Shown here piece by piece: positions 6,405 through 15,860 of a DNA stretch of 29,635 nucleotides. The notes beneath the pieces were generated by a model. The model searched no databases. It saw only the letters and a list, made by a program, of their open reading frames with translations, and was not told the DNA's origin. Origin of the DNA: a virus; the IMG/VR virus record IMGVR_UViG_3300042563_001410, positions 1 through 29,635 of that record; one strand, written 5' to 3'. Position 1 is the first letter of the stretch. Every line of letters starts with the position of its first letter. The position numbers and the translations under genes were made by a program.

Positions 6405-6695
6405 ATGTCACAAGAACTGAACACCACCATTGACGATATTCTGAAGGTATCGGGTTCTAGTAACCCGCAATCCGTAGGTTCCATCATGGCTCGTGCTATT
6501 AATGCTGGGCAAATGCCTAAAATGCGTGCTATTGGCGCATCAGCAGTAAACCAAGCAGCCAAAGCCTGCGCTATCGCCCGTGGCTTTGTTGCCCCACGTG
6601 GAATTGATTTATCTTTTGTTATTGGGTTTGATGACATCCCAGGCAATGACGGAGAAACAATTTCTGCAATTTCTTTTAAACCAATTATTAAGTAA
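6405..6695 (+). CDS. SpoVS-family (Alba-like) protein
   Basis: 96 residues closely matching the stage V sporulation protein S pattern: LKVSGSSNPQSVGSIMARAI, then IGASAVNQAAKACAIARGFVAP, then GIDLSF. SpoVS is a small Alba-like protein considered to bind nucleic acid. The N-terminal extension MSQELNTTIDD is short. A strong ribosome site (CTAGGAG, 7 bases before ATG) and a gap from the previous gene suggest a new translation unit heading the long coupled operon up to 11.9 kb. In sporulators it affects spore coat and septation; in a phage, a nucleoid- or RNA-binding role is more likely (inference). Confidence 0.88.
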   Translation: MSQELNTTIDDILKVSGSSNPQSVGSIMARAINAGQMPKMRAIGASAVNQAAKACAIARGFVAPRGIDLSFVIGFDDIPGNDGETISAISFKPIIK

Positions 6696-6875: not shown

Positions 6876-7015
6876 TGCCTTCTCGTAAGCGTAACCGTCA
6901 ACCCGCTAGTGGCAAATACCAAAAGTTTATGTCACGCCCCCCTCGTCCCGTTTCCACAGTAGGTGGTGGTCAAGGGGGTCTTGTAGGTGGTCCTAGCGCA
7001 GGTGGGTTACAGTAA
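6875..7015 (+). CDS. small basic Gly-rich protein, 46 aa
   Basis: MPSRKRNRQP head with several Arg and Lys and a Gly-rich tail (VGGGQGGLVGGPSAGGLQ). TAATG overlaps on both sides. The basic head recalls the M-x-R starts of the following gene family. It may bind nucleic acid; not recognised. Confidence 0.62.
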   Translation: MPSRKRNRQPASGKYQKFMSRPPRPVSTVGGGQGGLVGGPSAGGLQ

Positions 7016-7506
7016 TGGCTGCTAATACATTTACTCAGTGGGGTAGCGCTAATGAACCTCCTGGTATGGGAACTGCTGCCAGCATGGGGCCTTCTCCAGT
7101 TTGGCGCAACTCTAAAGACCAGTTGCTATCGGGGTACCGCACAGGTGTAGAAGAACAGTATCCAGACGGATACCTTGGCACCATGTCTTCTAACCGCCGC
7201 CAAGACAAGATTCTTGGAACATTAAGTCGTATGAATGCTCGGCAGTACAGCCGTGGTGTCCATAAAGGTGAGCGCATCAACCCTGGTGACTACGTTTGGC
7301 CCGAAGAGTTTAACCTTTGGACAGGAATTCAATTAGAATCTCAAGGTCTTAAATTTGCTCCCCCTGGAGCAGAACCTGTTCGTCTTACCAATGATGGAAA
7401 AGTAGGTCCTCGTGGCATCCCTTCTCGCCAAGGAGAAGAACAGGTTCAAGAGATTAGTGCTGAACGGCGTGCTCTTCTTAAATCATTAGCACCGCCGTGG
7501 AAATAA
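7015..7506 (+). CDS. hypothetical protein, 163 aa
   Basis: Largest of the early members of this small-gene array. Gly/Pro/Ser-rich head, then an Arg-rich central helix (SSNRRQDKILGTLSRMNARQYSRG) and a conserved-looking segment GDYVWPEEFNLWTGIQLESQGLKFAPPGAEPVRL. No known catalytic motif. Could be a minor virion protein; not recognised. Confidence 0.75.
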   Translation: MAANTFTQWGSANEPPGMGTAASMGPSPVWRNSKDQLLSGYRTGVEEQYPDGYLGTMSSNRRQDKILGTLSRMNARQYSRGVHKGERINPGDYVWPEEFNLWTGIQLESQGLKFAPPGAEPVRLTNDGKVGPRGIPSRQGEEQVQEISAERRALLKSLAPPWK

Positions 7507-7520
7507 GGTAAAATAGAGTT

Positions 7521-7781
7521 ATGCCAAGAGGTAAAGATTCACGAGACCATCCAGGTCGCCGCCCAGTTGACCCACGTATCACGAATACCCAAGATAATGA
7601 TGATGCACCTCCACATGGTATCCCTCGCCCTGATACGTCTAACATCCGCCATGAAGATGACGCACCTCCACATGGTATCCCTCGCCCTAACTTAGATGAA
7701 GTACTTGACCCCTGGGACCCTGAAGATGTTGAAGAAGAGTATAACCTTAGAGAAGAGCGTCTGAAGAAAGGACACTACTAA
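7521..7781 (+). CDS. M-x-R-G-x-D family small protein with internal repeat
   Basis: 86 residues. The N-terminus MPRGKDSRDHPGR is shared with four later genes in this array. Residues about 28-57 hold two copies of DDAPPHGIPRP, encoded by a 27-bp identical direct repeat (7605-7631 and 7662-7688). The C-terminus is acidic then basic (DPEDVEEEYNLREERLKKGHY). Starts 14 bases after the previous stop and overlaps the next by one base (TAATG). Role unknown. Confidence 0.7.
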   Translation: MPRGKDSRDHPGRRPVDPRITNTQDNDDAPPHGIPRPDTSNIRHEDDAPPHGIPRPNLDEVLDPWDPEDVEEEYNLREERLKKGHY

Positions 7782-8176
7782 TGCCGCCAACTGACCATAG
7801 AGGAAATCCAGTAGGAAACCCTGATACATCACATGGTGGGCACCGCCCTACCCCCCGTGTTATCCAAGCGCTTCAACGTTACTATAAAATTGATTCAGAC
7901 ACCGCACAGGAAGTTATTGATGAGCACCGCAAAGGAAACGATTACCTAGACGATGCACATTATGGTGTTGACTACTCAACCCCTTACCACCCTGACAAAC
8001 CCGTTCCAGACGATGACAATGTTGGTAACCGTATTGACCACATTCCTACGGCTATTTCTGAAGCAGTAGACGCTCGTTCAGGTAAAAACTCAATGGGCTA
8101 CAGTTCTCCCTACGAGTACCCACCCACGGTAAAATACAAAGAGTCAAAAGACCCTGCTGAAGGTATTTTTTACTAA
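7781..8176 (+). CDS. hypothetical protein with TDHRGN head, 131 aa
   Basis: The head (PPTDHRGNPVGNP) resembles that of the next gene (TTDHRGNSVGGN), so the two probably share an N-terminal tag. A helical part follows (RVIQALQRYYKIDSDTAQEVIDEHRKG), then a Tyr/Pro-rich tail. TAATG coupling on both sides. No family recognised. Confidence 0.72.
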   Translation: MPPTDHRGNPVGNPDTSHGGHRPTPRVIQALQRYYKIDSDTAQEVIDEHRKGNDYLDDAHYGVDYSTPYHPDKPVPDDDNVGNRIDHIPTAISEAVDARSGKNSMGYSSPYEYPPTVKYKESKDPAEGIFY

Positions 8177-8472
8177 TGACTACTGACCATAGAGGAAATT
8201 CAGTTGGTGGTAACCACCGCTCAACACCACGTAGTGAGTTCCGTGGAATGACTAAAGACACTTTGGCAGGCTATAGAGCACAGGGATACACCCACCCCAC
8301 AGGACCAACAACTATGTTGAATCCATCAGGTGCTGCGAATGCTCGTTCATCGTATCGCACTTACCGAGGTTATGGTGAGTCACCTCAAAATGCTCGCCAT
8401 TTGGCTATTCGTGGAGCCATCACGCAAGGTGGCATGGTAGAGGGTGGCAAACTAGGATGGAATAATCAATAA
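8176..8472 (+). CDS. hypothetical protein with TDHRGN head, 98 aa
   Basis: Shares the N-terminal TDHRGN-x-VG head with the upstream gene. The rest is Gly-, Arg- and Ser-rich, with SSYRTYRGYGESPQNARHLAIRGAI. Low hydrophobicity and no catalytic motif. Coupled by TAATG to both neighbours. Confidence 0.7.
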   Translation: MTTDHRGNSVGGNHRSTPRSEFRGMTKDTLAGYRAQGYTHPTGPTTMLNPSGAANARSSYRTYRGYGESPQNARHLAIRGAITQGGMVEGGKLGWNNQ

Positions 8473-8663
8473 TGGCACGCAGAAAGTCTTTTGATGATGG
8501 ACATGGAATGGACCATCACAAACTACATAACATGTTGCGAGTAGCAGGTGGTGCTGCTATTGGTGCTGCTGGATATGGTCCAATAGGTGCTATTGTAGGT
8601 GGCGTAGCAGCGCATGCTACTAATCAGTATTTTGACAACCGTGAAGAAAACGAGGATTACTAA
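8472..8663 (+). CDS. glycine-zipper membrane-like protein, 63 aa
   Basis: Polar His/Asp-rich head, then a Gly/Ala-spaced hydrophobic stretch (VAGGAAIGAAGYGPIGAIVG, about residues 25-44) typical of glycine-zipper membrane segments, then an acidic tail. Possible membrane insertion or capsid-internal protein. TAATG overlaps on both sides. Confidence 0.7.
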   Translation: MARRKSFDDGHGMDHHKLHNMLRVAGGAAIGAAGYGPIGAIVGGVAAHATNQYFDNREENEDY

Positions 8664-8899
8664 TGCCTCGTGGAGAAGATACTAGTAAACACCCTAATCG
8701 TGGTGTTGACCGTCAATCATTCATGATGACGGGTGCAGATATGGAATACTACCAAAATCGTGCCAATGCTGGTCAAGACGAAGACGGACCACTTTGTAGC
8801 AATTGCACTGACGACATGGGAGAAGCATTGGAGTGGCACGACAGGGAATCTATCCACCCTAGTAAGCGTGTTCCTTGTGTTGGATGTGGAGCAAAATAA
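8663..8899 (+). CDS. M-x-R-G-x-D family protein with zinc knuckles
   Basis: 78 residues: head MPRGEDTSKHPNRG, a middle with DMEYYQNRANAG, and a C-terminal CSNC ... CVGC pair that probably binds zinc. The tag plus a different C-terminal domain is the pattern repeated across this array. TAATG coupled. Confidence 0.72.
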   Translation: MPRGEDTSKHPNRGVDRQSFMMTGADMEYYQNRANAGQDEDGPLCSNCTDDMGEALEWHDRESIHPSKRVPCVGCGAK

Positions 8900-9186
8900 T
8901 GCCTCGTGGAAAAGATACTCGTGACCACCCAAAGCGCCAAGTAGGTCGTCCAAAACCGACCCCTCAATTTGAACTTAATGATGGACCACAGCAAGTAGCC
9001 CGTGACTGGTCACAGGGTAATGATACTGCTTTAGGACGTTTTGCATCAAAAGGTGAAATCAGTGAAGGTACTTTTGCGGAAATTAACCAAACTTTAGATT
9101 ATGGCGCTCCTCACCCACGTGAAAAAGAGCGTCTTACAAATTTGCGTAAACACTTAGAAGCGCAAAAAGACAACGAGGAGCAGTAA
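8899..9186 (+). CDS. M-x-R-G-x-D family protein, 95 aa
   Basis: Starts at the ATG overlapping the previous stop (TAATG), which gives the head MPRGKDTRDHPKRQVGRPKP; an upstream in-frame start at 8875 would lie inside the previous zinc-knuckle gene. The C-terminal half is a charged helix (REKERLTNLRKHLEAQKDNEEQ). Function unknown. Confidence 0.72.
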   Translation: MPRGKDTRDHPKRQVGRPKPTPQFELNDGPQQVARDWSQGNDTALGRFASKGEISEGTFAEINQTLDYGAPHPREKERLTNLRKHLEAQKDNEEQ

Positions 9187-9386
9187 TGTCACGAGGGCGT
9201 GATGAACGAAATAATCCTAAGCGCAACCCAGTAGTTGTGCGGAATGTTAATACTCCTAATGTTCTTTGGGTTAACTTTGCTAATCCGTCTGAACCGCACG
9301 ATGCAGTTACAGAATATATTATGGAACAAAAACAACAAAGTTCTCGTGCCGCCCACCCATCTAATACACCTAAGGAACCCCAATGA
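9186..9386 (+). CDS. M-x-R-G-x-D family protein, 66 aa
   Basis: Head MSRGRDERNNPKRNP, then a short hydrophobic stretch (NVLWVNFANP) and a Gln/Ser-rich tail. TAATG coupled upstream and ATGA coupled downstream. Function unknown. Confidence 0.68.
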   Translation: MSRGRDERNNPKRNPVVVRNVNTPNVLWVNFANPSEPHDAVTEYIMEQKQQSSRAAHPSNTPKEPQ

Positions 9387-9637
9387 CTAGAGGAATTGAC
9401 GAGCGGGATAACCCCGCAAGAATTGCACACATGATGGCAGCAGAACCACAAGTTCTTGCTGCTGCTTTGGGCGCTTACAATGCTTTAAATGCAAATAACA
9501 TTCCAAATAGCCATGACCCAGGTGGCATTGCAGAAACTAACCATGACATGCGTGCAATGAGCCGTATGCAGGGTACCCGCCGTGACATTATTGCATCTCT
9601 TTCACAATCACCACAAGTTGTTGCTGACATCCAATAA
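9383..9637 (+). CDS. M-x-R-G-x-D family protein, 84 aa
   Basis: Head MTRGIDERDNPARI, then Ala/Met-rich helices (MMAAEPQVLAAALGAYNAL; MRAMSRMQGTRRDIIASL). Fifth and last member of the tagged set. ATGA upstream, TAATG downstream. Confidence 0.7.
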   Translation: MTRGIDERDNPARIAHMMAAEPQVLAAALGAYNALNANNIPNSHDPGGIAETNHDMRAMSRMQGTRRDIIASLSQSPQVVADIQ

Positions 9638-9942
9638 TGCAAGTTCCGTACAAGCCCAATCAGTCTCATACAGAGATGCTGGTAGACCAGGCTTTACAAT
9701 CTTATTTGCTACCCCCAGAACAAATTAGAGCAATTCGTCCGCTTGTACCACAACAGTTGTTTCCACAAACCCGTGGGTTTAACCGTCAAGAAATGACTAT
9801 AATGGATGTACTTGATACTCCAAGAACTATGCCAACTTATAGCCGTTGGGTTTCAGGTGCTCCAGTTATGTTCCGTAATGGTTTTATGGAAGACAACTTT
9901 GAAGGTTCTAGTCGCTACTCAATGCAAGGATTGTGGGCATAA
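9637..9942 (+). CDS. hypothetical protein, 101 aa
   Basis: No shared tag. Residues 10-45 look helical (MLVDQALQSYLLPPEQIRAIRPL); the remainder is Arg/Gly/Met-rich. TAATG coupling upstream and downstream places it in the same operon. Not recognised. Confidence 0.7.
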   Translation: MQVPYKPNQSHTEMLVDQALQSYLLPPEQIRAIRPLVPQQLFPQTRGFNRQEMTIMDVLDTPRTMPTYSRWVSGAPVMFRNGFMEDNFEGSSRYSMQGLWA

Positions 9943-10169
9943 TGGAAAATGAAACAAACTACCATGAAGAGGCTCGTAAATTGATGGAGACCCATTCTCC
10001 TCATGTTCTTACAGCCATTCTTGCGCAACATATCCAGCGCAACCATGGTATGTCAGAAACTGAAGCATGGGGAAGCGCCTCTGACCTTTTGAAGCAACAT
10101 GGCACCACATCTACTTTGCAAAGTATTCTTGCTAACCAAATTGAAAAGTCTGCACAAGCAGGTCAATAG
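9942..10169 (+). CDS. small helical protein, 75 aa
   Basis: The start at 9942 (TAATG) is preferred over the in-frame ATG at 9933. The chain is wholly helical in appearance: HEEARKLMETHSPHVLTAIL and SETEAWGSASDLLKQHG. Acidic. Possibly a scaffold-like or regulatory protein; no family recognised. Confidence 0.68.
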   Translation: MENETNYHEEARKLMETHSPHVLTAILAQHIQRNHGMSETEAWGSASDLLKQHGTTSTLQSILANQIEKSAQAGQ

Positions 10170-10171
10170 TA

Positions 10172-11701
10172 ATGACAGATTCAGACTTCAATACAAATAA
10201 AGATATTAACCGCTACTTGCAACAGCAAGGGCGTGCTCCACAAAGCCACATGGACTGGGAAATGTGGCGTAAGACAGGACAACCTGGGACGTACCAAGCA
10301 CCTCCAGGTTCACCTTCTACCTTTCGGGGTGTCCGTGGCGGTGGCGGTGGACCCAATTATGATACTGGTGTAAACCATTACAACATGTTTACAGGCTTGA
10401 ACGATACCATTGAAAAGACTGTTGGTGGCGTAGGTGGCTGGGCCGCTAAAAAATACAAAGACTCACGTGATGGTAAAATGGATAAAGACAATTCAGGCTC
10501 AACCGCCTCTTCAAGAAATGGTTCCGATATGGCAGACGATGGTTTAATGGGTCCTCCAGTTGCAGGTGGTGGACGAAGCCAAAATGCATCTATTACTTCC
10601 CCTGCTAATAGTCGTGGTATGCGCCGTGGTCGGCGTGGAGATTTTAGTGGTGCGTTAGCATCACATGGCATTACCATGGTTCAAGGTAACGACAACTACG
10701 GAACTGTCTACGGTAATATGGGAGGCGCTAATGTTGGAAACGGCGATTACGATAACTCCTTTCAATCCAAAAATAGTGGAGGACGACAGACAGCCTTCAG
10801 CGGAAACAACAGTACATTCGGTGGTGGTAGTCCAACTCCTCCAGTTGGTCCCACAACGCCGACTCCACCGCCGCCACCGCCGACTCCTCCAGTCGGTCCT
10901 ACTCCGCCTCCAACTCCGCCAGTAGGTCCTACTCCGCCAATTTATGGCCCACCACCGCCACCTCCTTTTCCACCAGCACCGCCACCAATAAAGATGCAGC
11001 CTCCTGGAACTCCTCCACAAATTGGTGCTCCTCCAGTAGGTCCTGGTCGCCCACAAATTCCAGTTGGACAGCAAACTAGTGCTCCACCAGTAGGTCCACA
11101 AACACCTGTTGCGGGTCCACAGCGTCCAGGTACTCCTGCAATTGGTGCAGGACCACAACCTGCTGGTGCTATTGAATCAGGTCCACAACCTATGGGTCAA
11201 CTTGACGAAAGTAACCGTACTAAAGTGCCAGATGGTCTTTACGCTCATGCTAATGACGAAAAGGGTGGTCCTGAGGCTGCCACAGCCCGTCAAAAATTAA
11301 ATGAAAAAGGTGTTAATGGACCTTGGCTTTCCGAAACAGCAGGTCCACAAGCGCCAGCAGCAGGACCAATGTCACAACCTGTTCAAGGTCCTAAGTCTGG
11401 GTATGCTACTGCTCAAGAAGCAACTGCTGCTGCTACAGGTAACATTGGTGCTCCCAAGACTCAGGGTCGTAAGATTAACGAGCAAGGTGGAGTTGGCGCT
11501 AAAAAATATGGTCCAGCAAAACCAAAACCAAAAATTGGTGACCCAGACTATAAACCAGTCATGGGTAAAAATCCTTTAAATGATAAAGCATCAATGAAAC
11601 CTTTAACTACTTTAATTCCACAAACAGTTGAAGGCCCAAAGTCAGTTGCCTCTAAAGCACCTGCTAAAAAAGCAGCCGCAAAACCCAAAGGAAAGAAGTA
11701 A
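10172..11701 (+). CDS. proline-rich repeat protein with lysine-rich tail, 509 aa
   Basis: The largest protein of the array, of low complexity. Residues 1-50 are folded-looking (YLQQQGRAPQSHMDWEMWRK). Residues 50-215 are Gly/Ser/Asn-rich. Residues about 220-340 are Pro-rich with five PPVGP units and several poly-Pro runs. Residues 340-480 carry GPQ/AGP repeats and, near 435, INEQGGVGAKKYGPAKP, which recurs at the start of the protein at 12891. The end is Ala/Lys-rich (SKAPAKKAAAKPKGKK), like histone-H1-type DNA-binding tails. Likely extended and nucleic-acid- or surface-binding; could be a virion or internal DNA-condensing protein, but this is inference. Confidence 0.78.
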   Translation: MTDSDFNTNKDINRYLQQQGRAPQSHMDWEMWRKTGQPGTYQAPPGSPSTFRGVRGGGGGPNYDTGVNHYNMFTGLNDTIEKTVGGVGGWAAKKYKDSRDGKMDKDNSGSTASSRNGSDMADDGLMGPPVAGGGRSQNASITSPANSRGMRRGRRGDFSGALASHGITMVQGNDNYGTVYGNMGGANVGNGDYDNSFQSKNSGGRQTAFSGNNSTFGGGSPTPPVGPTTPTPPPPPPTPPVGPTPPPTPPVGPTPPIYGPPPPPPFPPAPPPIKMQPPGTPPQIGAPPVGPGRPQIPVGQQTSAPPVGPQTPVAGPQRPGTPAIGAGPQPAGAIESGPQPMGQLDESNRTKVPDGLYAHANDEKGGPEAATARQKLNEKGVNGPWLSETAGPQAPAAGPMSQPVQGPKSGYATAQEATAAATGNIGAPKTQGRKINEQGGVGAKKYGPAKPKPKIGDPDYKPVMGKNPLNDKASMKPLTTLIPQTVEGPKSVASKAPAKKAAAKPKGKK

Positions 11702-11704
11702 ATT

Positions 11705-11902
11705 ATGGCAGTTAATGAATCCCGCTCATGCAATCGTGACCTCACTCTAGGTGCAGGCGATGGCAAGTTTAAATCACTTACCCCAAACCGTGGTGGCAAT
11801 GTTGACCCAACAGCAGCCGCTATTCGCAAAAACATGCTTCAAATTCAATATAATATTCAAGAAGCACCAAACTTCCCAAATTTTGAATCGCACCTTCAGT
11901 AA
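11705..11902 (+). CDS. small hypothetical protein, 65 aa
   Basis: Starts 3 bases after the previous stop. MAVNESRSCNRDLTLGAGDG head and a helical C-terminal part (AAAIRKNMLQIQYNIQ). Last gene of the coupled operon before a 61-bp intergenic region. Not recognised. Confidence 0.66.
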   Translation: MAVNESRSCNRDLTLGAGDGKFKSLTPNRGGNVDPTAAAIRKNMLQIQYNIQEAPNFPNFESHLQ

Positions 11903-11905
11903 CAG

Positions 11906-11935
11906 TAGACAACACCACTAGGTATCATGTAAGAT
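11906..11935 (+). promoter_or_regulatory. candidate promoter before the 11964 gene
   Basis: TAGACA (11906-11911), 18 bases, TAAGAT (11930-11935). The -10 lies in a small inverted repeat (AGGTATC 11920-11926 / GATACCT 11933-11939). A 12/13 copy of the dispersed 13-bp motif follows at 11937-11949 and runs into the ribosome site CTAGGAG. By-eye call. Confidence 0.4.
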
Positions 11936-11963
11936 ACCTTACAGAAACTACTAGGAGCACAAA

Positions 11964-12431
11964 ATGGCTGATAAAGACTTTGACCGTCTACTTGTATGCA
12001 AAACCCATGGGGTTATGTGGAAGATGCGTCCGTATGATGGACCACCTGAATATGACCAAGAGTTGCGTGAACTATGTGACCGACATAACGCACAGGTACC
12101 CGACCCTCAGAACTGTAGAGCATTAATCTATCGCACAGACCCAGAAACTGCATCTAAGTTAGATGTAGAAACAGCACTTAAAAGAGAGTTGCAAGACCAA
12201 GATGTTTACATCCGTGACTTCCGAGATGAGTTAAAAGTTGATGCACTCAAATGTTTTAGTCGTCACAACCGACCAAGTCAGGGTTGCATTGATTGGTGCA
12301 ATGACGATAAGACTATTGGACGTAAAACTGGTATTCCTAAAGAAAAACGACAATATGTGTGTATGTACTGCCCTGCCGCCGAATACTATACGCATCGCCA
12401 ACGCACTGAAATGGGTCTTTACGACAAGTGA
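11964..12431 (+). CDS. Cys/His-rich hypothetical protein, 155 aa
   Basis: Preceded by CTAGGAG 8 bases upstream, the same ribosome site as the SpoVS gene. Cys and His are spread through the chain: CKTHG near residue 12, CDRHN, then CFSRHNRPSQGCIDWC and CMYCPAAEYYTHRQR near the C-terminus, suggesting a zinc or iron-sulfur fold. Similar proteins seem familiar from actinophages without an assigned role. GTG overlap with the next gene. Confidence 0.75.
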   Translation: MADKDFDRLLVCKTHGVMWKMRPYDGPPEYDQELRELCDRHNAQVPDPQNCRALIYRTDPETASKLDVETALKRELQDQDVYIRDFRDELKVDALKCFSRHNRPSQGCIDWCNDDKTIGRKTGIPKEKRQYVCMYCPAAEYYTHRQRTEMGLYDK

Positions 12432-12904
12432 TTCTAATTAATTTTGATGCCATTGCTTCCCCTGGTGATGAAATTGGTGCTCGTATTCCACGAAAAGAAA
12501 TGCGCCGACTATGGGGAGCCCTAAATGCTGGGTACAACAACAAGTTAGCCATCATGGCTACAGGCATTACAAATACTCCCATTCTTCTTGAATGGTTAAA
12601 GCGTGAAGGCTACAAAGCCACTACCGTAGACATTGTTTTAGAAGACAGTGTGGATGTAAAGATTGACCGTGTTGCTTCTTTTAATGCTGTTTACGGCAAA
12701 ATTAATTGGTACATAGATATTGACCCAATTGCTGTTGCGAAGGTTGCGCATATGGGTATACCCACGCTACTATTGACGGTACCCGACACCATCCGACTTG
12801 AATGGAACGAAGAAAGAGTTCTAAAAAGTTGGGATGTACTTGTTGAGGAAATTGAAAGCCAAGCATTAGCGAAGGCAGAAAGGACATGGCGTGAGTCAGA
12901 TTAA
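12428..12904 (+). CDS. HAD-like fold protein, probably non-canonical
   Basis: 158 residues, GTG start overlapping the previous stop. The strand pattern MILINFDAIA, LAIMATGIT, WYIDIDPIAVAKVAHMGIPTLLLTVP follows a HAD-like Rossmann layout; the last segment is the phage HAD pattern D-x-x-P ... GIPTLL ... P. The usual DxDG nucleophile motif is replaced by NFDAI, so catalysis is doubtful. May bind nucleotides or act as a regulatory relative. Fold inferred by eye. Confidence 0.6.
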   Translation: MILINFDAIASPGDEIGARIPRKEMRRLWGALNAGYNNKLAIMATGITNTPILLEWLKREGYKATTVDIVLEDSVDVKIDRVASFNAVYGKINWYIDIDPIAVAKVAHMGIPTLLLTVPDTIRLEWNEERVLKSWDVLVEEIESQALAKAERTWRESD

Positions 12905-13184
12905 TGAACATGGGGGCGTTGGTTCAGAACCATACGGTCCACCAAAACCACTCATAATGAATTTTGATGAATGGATGGCTTACGGGTTGGAAAACAGTTT
13001 TTGTGGACCCCCTGTATGCATCACCCATGATGGAGAACCAATGACCGAGGGAGAATACGAAGAGTTTGAACAAGGGCTTGACCCCTGCATCCACATGATT
13101 CGCCCCTACCACGATGTTGCAGAGCGTCTACTCGTGGAATCTGCCCATTCTCCATCAATCTGGCGCAGGCCAGGTTGGGAGTGA
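12891..13184 (+). CDS. small protein with INE-GGVG motif, 97 aa
   Basis: GTG start with AAGGA 6 bases upstream. Residues 4-20 (INEHGGVGSEPYGPPKP) closely match a segment near residue 435 of the 509-residue proline-rich protein, suggesting a shared binding element. The remainder is acidic with three Cys (FCGPPVC ... DPCIHMI) and a C-terminal Trp/Arg/Pro end. Overlaps neighbours by 14 and 4 bp. Confidence 0.68.
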   Translation: MSQINEHGGVGSEPYGPPKPLIMNFDEWMAYGLENSFCGPPVCITHDGEPMTEGEYEEFEQGLDPCIHMIRPYHDVAERLLVESAHSPSIWRRPGWE

Positions 13185-14620
13185 AAGTCTTTTTCGGAGG
13201 GTCAGAAAAAGGTTCATATCGGCGTATGTTGCTTGACAACAACGTCAAGCATTTTGCTCTAAATCTCACACATTTACCAATTCCTAAAAAGAAGGAATTT
13301 GTATTGTCAGACATTTTTCAAGGTAACGAAATCATTATCTATACTTCTGAAAATGATGAAGATTTGACTCGTTTTGATGATTTTGTACGTAATTACGCAG
13401 ATGACATTTCCATTGTTATTGGTCGCCCTGATTATGATGGAGCATGGCTTGGGGATAAGTATGTTCCTGTATGGAATGATGAAACTGACTTAGAACGCCT
13501 TGCGTGGCTTTGTCAAAAGTATGGTCGTGTAGCCATCTCAGACAAGGCTGTAAACCCTCGTAACATGGTCAGAATTCGCCAATTGGCAGCCCGTTGGGGA
13601 GCCAAACTTATTGGCATTACTTCTAAGCCTGACCTCATTGAGCACCTTCCTTGGGATGCTGTTATTGTCAATTCTTGGACTTCTGTCATCCGCTACGGGG
13701 AAACTCAGGTTTGGGATGGTCATGGTTTGCGCCGTTATCCAGCCCAGCAAAAAGAGTCTGCCAGAAAGAAGCACCGAGCAGATATTATACGACTTGATGT
13801 GGACATAGATTCTGTAATGGAGGATGATGTTGCCACTGTTGGCACTCTTGCTATCCGTTCTTGGCAACAATGGGAGACCCATACTTTTGGGGCCTATGAC
13901 CCTTCTGTGGCTGATGACGAAGACGAGTTTGGACCCCCTTCTGACCCCCCAATAATTACTATTGGGGGTGTTACCCCTCCTTTTCAAAAAGTGGCTCCAG
14001 GGGGGTCAAGTATTACTACAGCCCCATCAAATGAGCGGCACGAAAGAGGGCGGTCATTACTACCCGTAATGGGCATTGAATCTGTGGTGTCTTTAGGCCA
14101 TAGAACCGTTGGAAATGATGGAGAAGAACTAGAAATTGAGCCTGAGAAGGTTAACCTTCTAAAATATAATGCTGACCCACTAAGGGAGTGCAATAATTGC
14201 TATTTGGCTCCCCGATGCCCTCAATTTAACGAAAATGCGACATGTGCGTTTTCTTTGCCTTTAGAGATTAAGTCCAAAGACCAACTTCAGGCTGCTATGA
14301 AGGCTTTATTGGAGATGCAAGTAGGTCGTGTAATGTTCGCTAGGTTCGCTGAAGAACTAGAAGGACAAGGTCTTGATTCCAGCCTTTCTACAGAAATTGA
14401 CCGAGTATTTAACCTTGTGGAGAAAATGGCTCGCATCAGTGACAACCGAGAAATGCTTCGTATTGAAGTTGAGACTCGTGGGTCTAGTGGCGTTCTTTCA
14501 AGACTGTTTGGACAAAAAGTTGGGGAGACCAGCAAGATGCTTCCTAATGGTGGATTAAGCGAAGAAGCCACCGATGCCCTGTATGCAGATGTCATTGACT
14601 TTTCTGATGAAGACTCTTGA
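13181..14620 (+). CDS. large two-part hypothetical protein (about 479 aa)
   Basis: GTG at 13181 overlaps the previous stop (GTGA); an in-frame TTG at 13175 is the alternative. The N-terminal part (to about 210) starts VKVFFGGSEKGSYRRMLLDNNVKHFALNLTHL and alternates strands and helices like an alpha/beta barrel. A Pro/Gly-rich linker follows (about 235-285). The C-terminal part has CNNCYLAPRCPQF ... CAF, then a long helical segment (LQAAMKALLEMQVGRVMFARFAEELEG ... LSTEIDRVFNLVEK) and GVLSRLFG. It resembles uncharacterised actinophage proteins. A terminase-small-subunit-like or base-modification role is possible but cannot be supported from the sequence. Confidence 0.75.
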   Translation: MKVFFGGSEKGSYRRMLLDNNVKHFALNLTHLPIPKKKEFVLSDIFQGNEIIIYTSENDEDLTRFDDFVRNYADDISIVIGRPDYDGAWLGDKYVPVWNDETDLERLAWLCQKYGRVAISDKAVNPRNMVRIRQLAARWGAKLIGITSKPDLIEHLPWDAVIVNSWTSVIRYGETQVWDGHGLRRYPAQQKESARKKHRADIIRLDVDIDSVMEDDVATVGTLAIRSWQQWETHTFGAYDPSVADDEDEFGPPSDPPIITIGGVTPPFQKVAPGGSSITTAPSNERHERGRSLLPVMGIESVVSLGHRTVGNDGEELEIEPEKVNLLKYNADPLRECNNCYLAPRCPQFNENATCAFSLPLEIKSKDQLQAAMKALLEMQVGRVMFARFAEELEGQGLDSSLSTEIDRVFNLVEKMARISDNREMLRIEVETRGSSGVLSRLFGQKVGETSKMLPNGGLSEEATDALYADVIDFSDEDS

Positions 14621-14645
14621 CATAACCATAAGTACCACCTAAAAT
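14617..14645 (+). promoter_or_regulatory. strong sigma70-type promoter
   Basis: TTGACA (14617-14622), 17 bases, TAAAAT (14640-14645): consensus -35, near-consensus -10 and optimal spacing. It overlaps the end of the large gene and faces the 14667 gene, so it probably drives the dehydratase-nucleotidase-WhiB operon to the terminator at 17.35 kb. No 13-bp repeat lies upstream of it. Confidence 0.75.
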
Positions 14646-14666
14646 CAACTGAGTTTGGAGCATAAA

Positions 14667-14819
14667 ATGATAATAATTGGTTTATTAGTATTTAACACTT
14701 ATCTTCTTTGGAAGATTCTCAGTACCCTTAGATACATGTCTCTAAACCCTACAAATGATGACCTTTGGGACATCTTTGCTGAATACATAGAATCACAAGA
14801 CCCTGAAGAGGAATATTAA
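14667..14819 (+). CDS. small membrane protein, 50 aa
   Basis: GGAG 6 bases before the ATG. An N-terminal hydrophobic helix (MIIIGLLVFNTYLLW) is followed by a polar, acidic tail (DDLWDIFAEYIESQDPEEEY). First gene downstream of a strong promoter; its TAA is directly followed by the ATG of the dehydratase. A one-span membrane anchor is the likely topology. Confidence 0.65.
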   Translation: MIIIGLLVFNTYLLWKILSTLRYMSLNPTNDDLWDIFAEYIESQDPEEEY

Positions 14820-15860
14820 ATGAAAATCCTAGTAACTGGGGGATGCGGCTTTGCTGGGCATCACCTTATTGAACACCTCCTTACCAATACCGATAGTGAA
14901 ATTTTGGTACTTGATTCGCTGACCTATGCGGGTAAAGTAGACAGAGTTCTGGATATCCATAATTACGACTCAAACCGAGTAAAAATTATGTGGCACGACC
15001 TAAGGGCACCTTTACAACCTGTTTCTGAAAAACTGAAGGATATTACGCATGTTTTACACCTTGCGTCTGAATCCCATGTTGACCGCAGTATTACTGACCC
15101 AGCACCTTTCATCCATAACAACGTTATTGGGTCACTCAACATGTATGAATGGGCACGCACTCATGACAACTTAGAGCACTTTGTTCAGATTTCAACAGAT
15201 GAAGTTTATGGAGCCGCACCAGCAGGGCACGCCCACCAAGAATGGCTTGACCCCATGCTCCCTTCCAACCCTTATGCAGCCAGCAAGGTTGGTCAAGAAG
15301 CAATTGGTATTTCATACTGGCGCACTTATGGTCTTCCATTGACCATTACCAACACAATGAACCTGTTTGGAGAACGCCAACATCCTGAGAAGTTCCTTCC
15401 AAAAACTATTCGTTCTATTGCAAATGGAACCTCTGTAGAACTTCATGGTATTTATCATGGTCTTACAGATGGGTTTCCAAACTGGCAAGCATCCGAGCGC
15501 CATTGGCTTCATGCCCGTAACCACGCCGATGCTTTATTGTGGGTTCTTACACAAGCACCAGCAGTACGTTACAAAAACTCTGTAGAAACTCAGAAACCAA
15601 ACCGTTGGAATGTCGCTGGTGAAGAAAAGTCTGTACTTGAGATGACTGAGATTATCTCGGACATCCTTAATACTGCCTGTGAGATTGACTGGGTGGATTA
15701 CCATTCAACACGCCCAGGTCATGACCATCGTTACGCTTTGGATTCTTCCAAGATTCATAACGCAGGGTGGAAACCACCTTTTAATCTTGAAACTGCTCTA
15801 GAAAAAACCGTAGCGTGGGTAACCCGTGATGAGAATAAGAGGTGGCTCAGTGATTACTGA
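14820..15860 (+). CDS. rmlB: dTDP-glucose 4,6-dehydratase-like SDR
   Basis: 346 residues of the extended short-chain dehydrogenase family, which convert NDP-hexoses to 4-keto-6-deoxy sugars with bound NAD. The Rossmann motif is GGCGFAG (G7-x2-G10-x2-G13), the active-site triad region STDEVYG has T126-D127-E128 as in RmlB, and the catalytic pair is Y152-x3-K156 (YAASK). HLASESHVDRSI is also characteristic. Length matches RmlB. No rmlA, rmlC or rmlD is adjacent, so the product may feed host pathways or the glycosyltransferase at 18094. RmlB versus a related NDP-sugar epimerase is not fully settled. Confidence 0.9.
   Translation: MKILVTGGCGFAGHHLIEHLLTNTDSEILVLDSLTYAGKVDRVLDIHNYDSNRVKIMWHDLRAPLQPVSEKLKDITHVLHLASESHVDRSITDPAPFIHNNVIGSLNMYEWARTHDNLEHFVQISTDEVYGAAPAGHAHQEWLDPMLPSNPYAASKVGQEAIGISYWRTYGLPLTITNTMNLFGERQHPEKFLPKTIRSIANGTSVELHGIYHGLTDGFPNWQASERHWLHARNHADALLWVLTQAPAVRYKNSVETQKPNRWNVAGEEKSVLEMTEIISDILNTACEIDWVDYHSTRPGHDHRYALDSSKIHNAGWKPPFNLETALEKTVAWVTRDENKRWLSDY

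Follow-up and report, generated by a model that had tools for sequence, protein, structure and literature searches.

Known delivery peptides and the tagged proteins

The closest described system is the capsid-targeting sequence (CTS) of phage T4, an N-terminal peptide of 10–19 residues borne by the small, dissimilar and fast-varying internal proteins IPI, IPII and IPIII (PMC9026906). It places unrelated internal proteins, as well as foreign proteins fused to it, in the virion head (PMC9026906, PMC9958956), and has been proposed as a general route for loading varied proteins in T4-like phages (PMC9026906). The polyvalent proteins of phages and conjugative elements, which include ART domains, are predicted to be co-injected with DNA in portal–terminase phages (PMC5512222), and ADP-ribosyltransferases prototyped by T4 Alt are known virion-injected effectors (PMC5512222, PMC9958956). 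A further parallel is the terminal reassortment of type III effectors, in which shuffling attaches an N-terminal delivery signal to effector bodies that are unrelated.

Here we describe a locus from a 29,635-base stretch of one virus record (the window), which overlaps a 77.7-kb IMG/VR contig (G001) with the same genes. As with the T4 CTS, a short N-terminal peptide (the tag) is common to small proteins that are otherwise unrelated in sequence; we found no earlier description of it in the open-access literature. The two are likened by working principle, not kinship, and they differ in several respects: the tag is borne by >130 proteins, has several alternative N-terminal segments (heads) as counterparts and has a predicted virion destination; the regions following it (bodies) are acidic on average (net −2.2), whereas the T4 internal proteins are basic; and neither a processing protease nor its site was recognized here. 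Specifically, the sequence displays no cleavage motif after the tag, no T4-like prohead protease was recognized in a non-exhaustive search, and no protease family was detected on the capsid and scaffold proteins scanned. ART domains are found near tagged genes, as they are among polyvalent proteins; however, the latter are large and multidomain, whereas each tagged one is a small single protein bearing the shared head. Few of them have any Pfam domain, and the polyvalent layout of at least two unrelated domains in one large polypeptide does not apply to them. The type III effectors provide an evolutionary analogy only, as they are delivered by a secretion system and the proteins described here presumably by the virion.

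The tag and its extent

The original prediction was that five neighboring genes of the window encode proteins sharing an N-terminal tag and differing thereafter. All five exist at the predicted starts and carry the tag (Table 1): exactly five start sites of the window match the pattern M[PSTA]RGxDx[RS]x[HN]PxR, whereas 60 order-2 Markov windows yield no match. Their bodies are indeed unrelated, e.g., two copies of a mobile motif (DDAPPHGIPRP) in the 7521 protein and two CxxC pairs in the 8663 protein. The second head, TDHRGN, which had been noted on the 7781 and 8176 products, is likewise real and recurs in relatives. The window genes from 7521 to 10169 form ten in a row with nine overlaps of 1 base (TAATG) or 4 bases (ATGA), and are thus joined as a coupled unit. 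For the 8899 gene, the table of open reading frames mechanically gives a TTG start at 8875, whereas the gene chain fits the ATG at 8899.

Table 1. Features of the window in and around the variable block
Feature	Position	Strand	Length	Evidence and remarks
SpoVS-family protein	6405..6695	+		Upstream of block; Pfam PF04232, E 2e-20; synteny marker
Conserved border gene of variable block	7015..7506	+	163 aa	No known family; 134 IMG/VR relatives; AF2 pLDDT 51, no usable fold
Tagged protein 1	7521..7781	+	86 aa	Head MPRGKDSRDHPGRR; ORF and tag census
Second-head protein	7781..8176	+	131 aa	MPPTDHRGNPVG; body start RPTPRxxxAL; head class in relatives
Second-head protein	8176..8472	+	98 aa	MTTDHRGNSVGG; body GYTHPTGPTT..; BLASTP of bodies
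Third-head protein	8472..8663	+	63 aa	MARRKSFDDGHGMDHH; head recurs on different bodies in L213 and L179
Tagged protein 2	8663..8899	+	78 aa	Head MPRGEDTSKHPNRG; CxxC pairs zinc-ribbon-like; ORF and tag census
Tagged protein 3	8899..9186	+	95 aa	Head MPRGKDTRDHPKRQV; ORF from ATG 8899; close relatives in 6 IMG/VR contigs
Tagged protein 4	9186..9386	+	66 aa	Head MSRGRDERNNPKRN, E7..N10 sub-type; ORF and related tagged proteins in relatives
Tagged protein 5	9383..9637	+	84 aa	Head MTRGIDERDNPARI, E7..N10 sub-type; ORF; related tagged proteins in L041 and L015
Conserved gene, opposite border of variable block	9637..9942	+		29 relatives; AF2 pLDDT 55, no usable fold
Small conserved gene	11705..11902	+		MAVNxSRSMN..; downstream of block; in relatives and Streptomyces phages GiJojo and Alone3

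Relatives were collected via the 8899, 9637 and 7015 proteins and a DNA pattern for the tag itself, and their genes were called by a simple tiling script, so that their starts are predictions. A search for the tag in relatives had been set beforehand as a check: the tag is kept, and absence from homologues was not borne out. The wider set holds 137 distinct tagged genes; 106 of 2,066 unique proteins match the 13-column tag, against 0.06 per shuffle of the proteins, and the same census found only 5 internal occurrences. Thus, the tagged set is far larger than the five first noted, amounting to well over a hundred proteins whose tag is swapped with a few others. The consensus is M-[APST]-[RKN]-G-x-[DN]-[T/E]-x-x-[H/N]-[P]-x-R-x-[V/P]. 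Across 116 non-redundant tagged proteins (median length 82.5 aa), M1, G4 and R13 never vary, though for G4 and R13 this is partly by construction, since the search pattern fixes columns 4 and 13; variants beyond that pattern exist, e.g., MARGVDSGGDGARVV and MARGEHRPNGAGRVD. At the other end of these proteins, Tyr is the last residue in 16% of the tagged and 26% of the DHRG-headed proteins, as against at most 6% of other genes, where it is outside the six commonest terminal residues.

Selection on the peptide

Pairs of heads differ in the codon used at a conserved column about as often as expected for a random draw of phage codons (for Arg13, 0.72 versus 0.77). When tagged proteins of the same locus whose bodies are unrelated are compared over eight core columns, the differences amount to 0.68 per site for synonymous and 0.195 for non-synonymous changes, and pairs of window heads share 40–74% of their nucleotides over codons 2–15, in agreement with the earlier observation that their codons differ. 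Since the synonymous codons of the tag are almost random, it is the peptide that is under selection. Moreover, residues 7 and 10 fall into two sub-types: of 94 heads, 54 have T7..H10, 34 have E7..N10 and only 6 show other combinations. As related bodies are found with either pair, these two residues change as a unit.

These observations bear on the alternative that the heads serve as recombination handles at the DNA level, or as signals for translation start located at the TAATG junctions, with the peptide itself having no role. The presence of such junctions at the gene joints is in line with it, and so is the closeness in DNA of the 8663 and 8899 heads (a single difference across their first 21 bases, which may reflect a recent copying event) and of the two DHRG heads of the window, which indicates that recent copying occurs. 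Nevertheless, a DNA-level signal fails to account for synonymous positions that are near saturation while the residues are kept, or for the paired change of residues 7 and 10, and we regard this explanation as very improbable. Simple tandem duplication of the window neighbors was also rejected as a candidate: the 42 bases following the heads show only 14–43% nucleotide identity, thereby excluding simple recent duplication. Within orthologous pairs, the head was not found to be more constrained than the body (pN/pS 0.40 versus 0.43); the special feature of the head is hence its sharing between unrelated bodies, not unusual slowness.

Alternative heads and their exchange between bodies

The tag is one of several heads recurring in these viruses: the DHRG (TDHRGN) head of the 7781 and 8176 products is seen on 47 non-redundant proteins in the relatives, the GAGRGD/RGG head on 19, the FxGxxVxR head on 13 and the FDxGHG head on 6 (including the 8472 product), with DHI..Q defining a further recurrent group. 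The heads are exchanged between bodies. For instance, in L066:8649 and L070:9712 the body of the TDHRGN-headed 8176 protein follows the RGxD tag (BLASTP, 53% identity, E about 2e-14); a QPLLGYxMxGQA body has the RGxD head in L102 and an NHRG head in L050; and a TYLGxxG..HxFSAEST body is combined with RGxD, GAGRGD, FxG-type and two DHRG-like heads and one more, i.e., five or six heads. A mobile motif, D-[DEN]-A-[PN]-x-x-G-[IM]-x-R-P, the one present twice in the 7521 protein, is found in 24 places on proteins with various heads. In a motif-free comparison, at least 8 of 15 N-terminal residues were shared by 3,891 pairs whose bodies are dissimilar; an internal control stretch gave 84 such pairs, and part of the excess comes from ordinary conserved families.

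An old paralogous family, in which a single ancestral gene kept a functional N-terminus while its bodies diverged, would be consistent with the tandem arrangement of the genes and the relationship among some of the bodies. Yet a single body can be found with five or six heads, and a single head with numerous bodies that are unrelated, LysM and zinc ribbons included. As divergence alone does not produce such head swapping, paralogy is largely refuted, and we consider it an unlikely explanation.

Phyletic spread

The tag carriers belong to one supergroup of freshwater and soil viruses of actinobacteria, and the tag was found only there. When 84,980 prokaryote species were scanned with a DNA pattern for the T..H, V15 form of the tag, a single match came up, which is off-frame on a contig from an archaeon and which we judged to be chance; a DNA search with the block gave no match among phage records; and a tblastn search with the consensus tag likewise gave none among them, albeit with the limited power of such a short query. 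Several isolated Streptomyces phages are related to the carriers. GiJojo has terminase, portal, scaffold, capsid and tail genes in common with the tagged phages; GiJojo and Alone3 share the SpoVS, 7015 and 11705 border genes with the window; and the 7015 gene is present in all five of GiJojo, Alone3, LuckySocke, BRock and pSt2308. Unlike in the tagged phages, the variable block of these Streptomyces phages is nearly empty, with no tag in the genes examined and no tblastn match to the consensus query.

Genomic location and predicted role

All 137 tagged genes lie on the same strand as the nearest marker gene, 119 of them in the variable block and 15 near the terminase or portal. In most contigs they make up the variable block between the border genes SpoVS, 7015, 9637 and 11705. 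For the phage of the window, the block lies downstream of recombination genes, at ~35 kb from the genes for portal and capsid, and the tag was not found elsewhere on its contig. In a second subgroup, recognized by the relationship of its terminase, portal, scaffold and capsid proteins to those of GiJojo, the tagged genes are instead located in the terminase–portal interval or immediately upstream of the portal, near the scaffold and capsid genes (loci L162, L166, L169, L170, L171, L187, L190, L197, L198, L199, L210, L212, L215, L216 and L221). Both terminase and portal are visible, with a tagged gene between them, in L162, L166, L169, L199 and L210 and in the contigs G025 and G026. In G025, the genes 7015 and 9637 are retained but the sole tagged gene adjoins the portal, and in G006 the tagged gene is in a third place; the 7015 gene was not found on the tag-carrying fragments of G026 and G027. 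These differing positions indicate that the tagged class moves between a few loci, one of which is inside the run of virion-head genes. The terminase–portal interval also has accessory genes coding for proteasome-like and GP88 family proteins; hence, the position points to co-location with virion-head genes rather than incorporation.

We propose that the first 13–17 residues constitute an exchangeable N-terminal targeting peptide that would be recognized by one phage receptor, such that many unrelated small accessory proteins could be handled as one cargo class through their heads. The likeliest destination would be the assembling virion head, with the tag serving to dock its carriers on the scaffold, capsid or portal; packaged alongside the DNA, these would reach the next host, and there their fast-changing bodies might act as anti-defense or takeover effectors. 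Capsid packaging draws contextual support from the terminase–portal position, a tagged LysM protein, nearby ADP-ribosyltransferases and the T4 precedent. Against it stand the distance of the window's tagged genes from the virion-head genes, the accessory genes of the terminase–portal interval, the outcome of the protease and cleavage-motif searches, the lack of extra constraint on the head within orthologous pairs, and the GiJojo-type isolates without a tag match. On balance, we tentatively favor the tag being an N-terminal cargo or targeting signal, most likely for virion incorporation, as a plausible reading.

In the main alternative, the heads dock on one partner within the cell, either a host enzyme or a phage hub protein, and the bodies are recruited takeover or inhibitor modules rather than packaged ones. 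Selection on the peptide and head swapping would fit this equally; the main block is near recombination rather than capsid genes; and the proteins encoded by the border genes 7015 and 9637, which are without a confident fold, could be the partners. However, tagged genes also move into the terminase–portal interval, the only tagged gene of G025 adjoins the portal although both border genes are kept, and the 7015 gene was not found on the tag-bearing fragments of G026 and G027. Docking within the cell is thus possible but, to us, less likely than virion incorporation. As for the original prediction of a common targeting signal, codon saturation, the coupled residues 7 and 10, head swapping and confinement to one phage supergroup give good support to selection on the peptide and to a common role in targeting or docking; packaging, a single receptor, ejection and effector function are predicted.

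Extending the virion-loading proposal to the other heads, one might envisage a modular cargo-loading code with about half a dozen interchangeable heads (RGxD, DHRG, FDxGHG, GAGRGD, FxGxxVxR and DHI..Q) on open-ended effector bodies, making up a swappable injected arsenal, wherein different heads would perhaps address different sites of one particle; this is speculative, and the odds are probably against it.

Should the tag prove to be a packaging signal, virion-delivered effectors of phages of uncultured actinobacteria could be predicted directly from metagenomic sequence, and the T4 principle would gain a second, independent example. Should it be a docking peptide instead, dozens of phage proteins would converge on a single strong hub protein as their target. 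Under either reading, the shuffling of heads and bodies illustrates how phages change their effector set while keeping the address.

Bodies and neighboring genes

The tagged proteins of the window have no significant Pfam or PHROGs family, and across the relatives Pfam gave almost no matches to tagged bodies beyond a few zinc-ribbon types and one LysM, the sole clear domain. The latter is at the C-terminus of the tagged protein L036:3437 and suggests contact with the cell wall. Two ADP-ribosyltransferases, one Arr-like (L220:3270-3599) and one PARP-like (L174:6789-7274), have other heads but are encoded in the same stretches as tagged genes. GNAT and ParB_N matches on other-head proteins were set aside as being below the Pfam cut-offs.

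Between terminase and portal, at 14596-15201 of the oriented contig G001, lies a gene for a proteasome-family protein (PF00227; start MTTIVG), present in G001 and G018 and not seen in G004; it is possible that it is a head-maturation or cargo protease. In the window, positions 13175-14620 code for a protein related to queuine tRNA-ribosyltransferase and DpdA-like proteins (phrog_887; DpdA-like in GiJojo), which suggests 7-deazaguanine DNA modification in this phage group. Window positions 10172-11701 encode a long low-complexity protein, rich in proline and glycine and with a lysine-rich C-terminus, in which an KINEQGGVGAKKYGPAKP stretch is similar to the 12891 ORF at its N-terminus (QINEHGGVGSEPYGPPKP). 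In L074 and L110 (about 10980-14660), the variable block includes genes for small lysine-rich proteins (MAKKKQVWDKKNPKKKSEKL.., MAKQGPCWDGYVQKGMKKKNGK.. and MAKSAAWQRKEGKNPEGG..).
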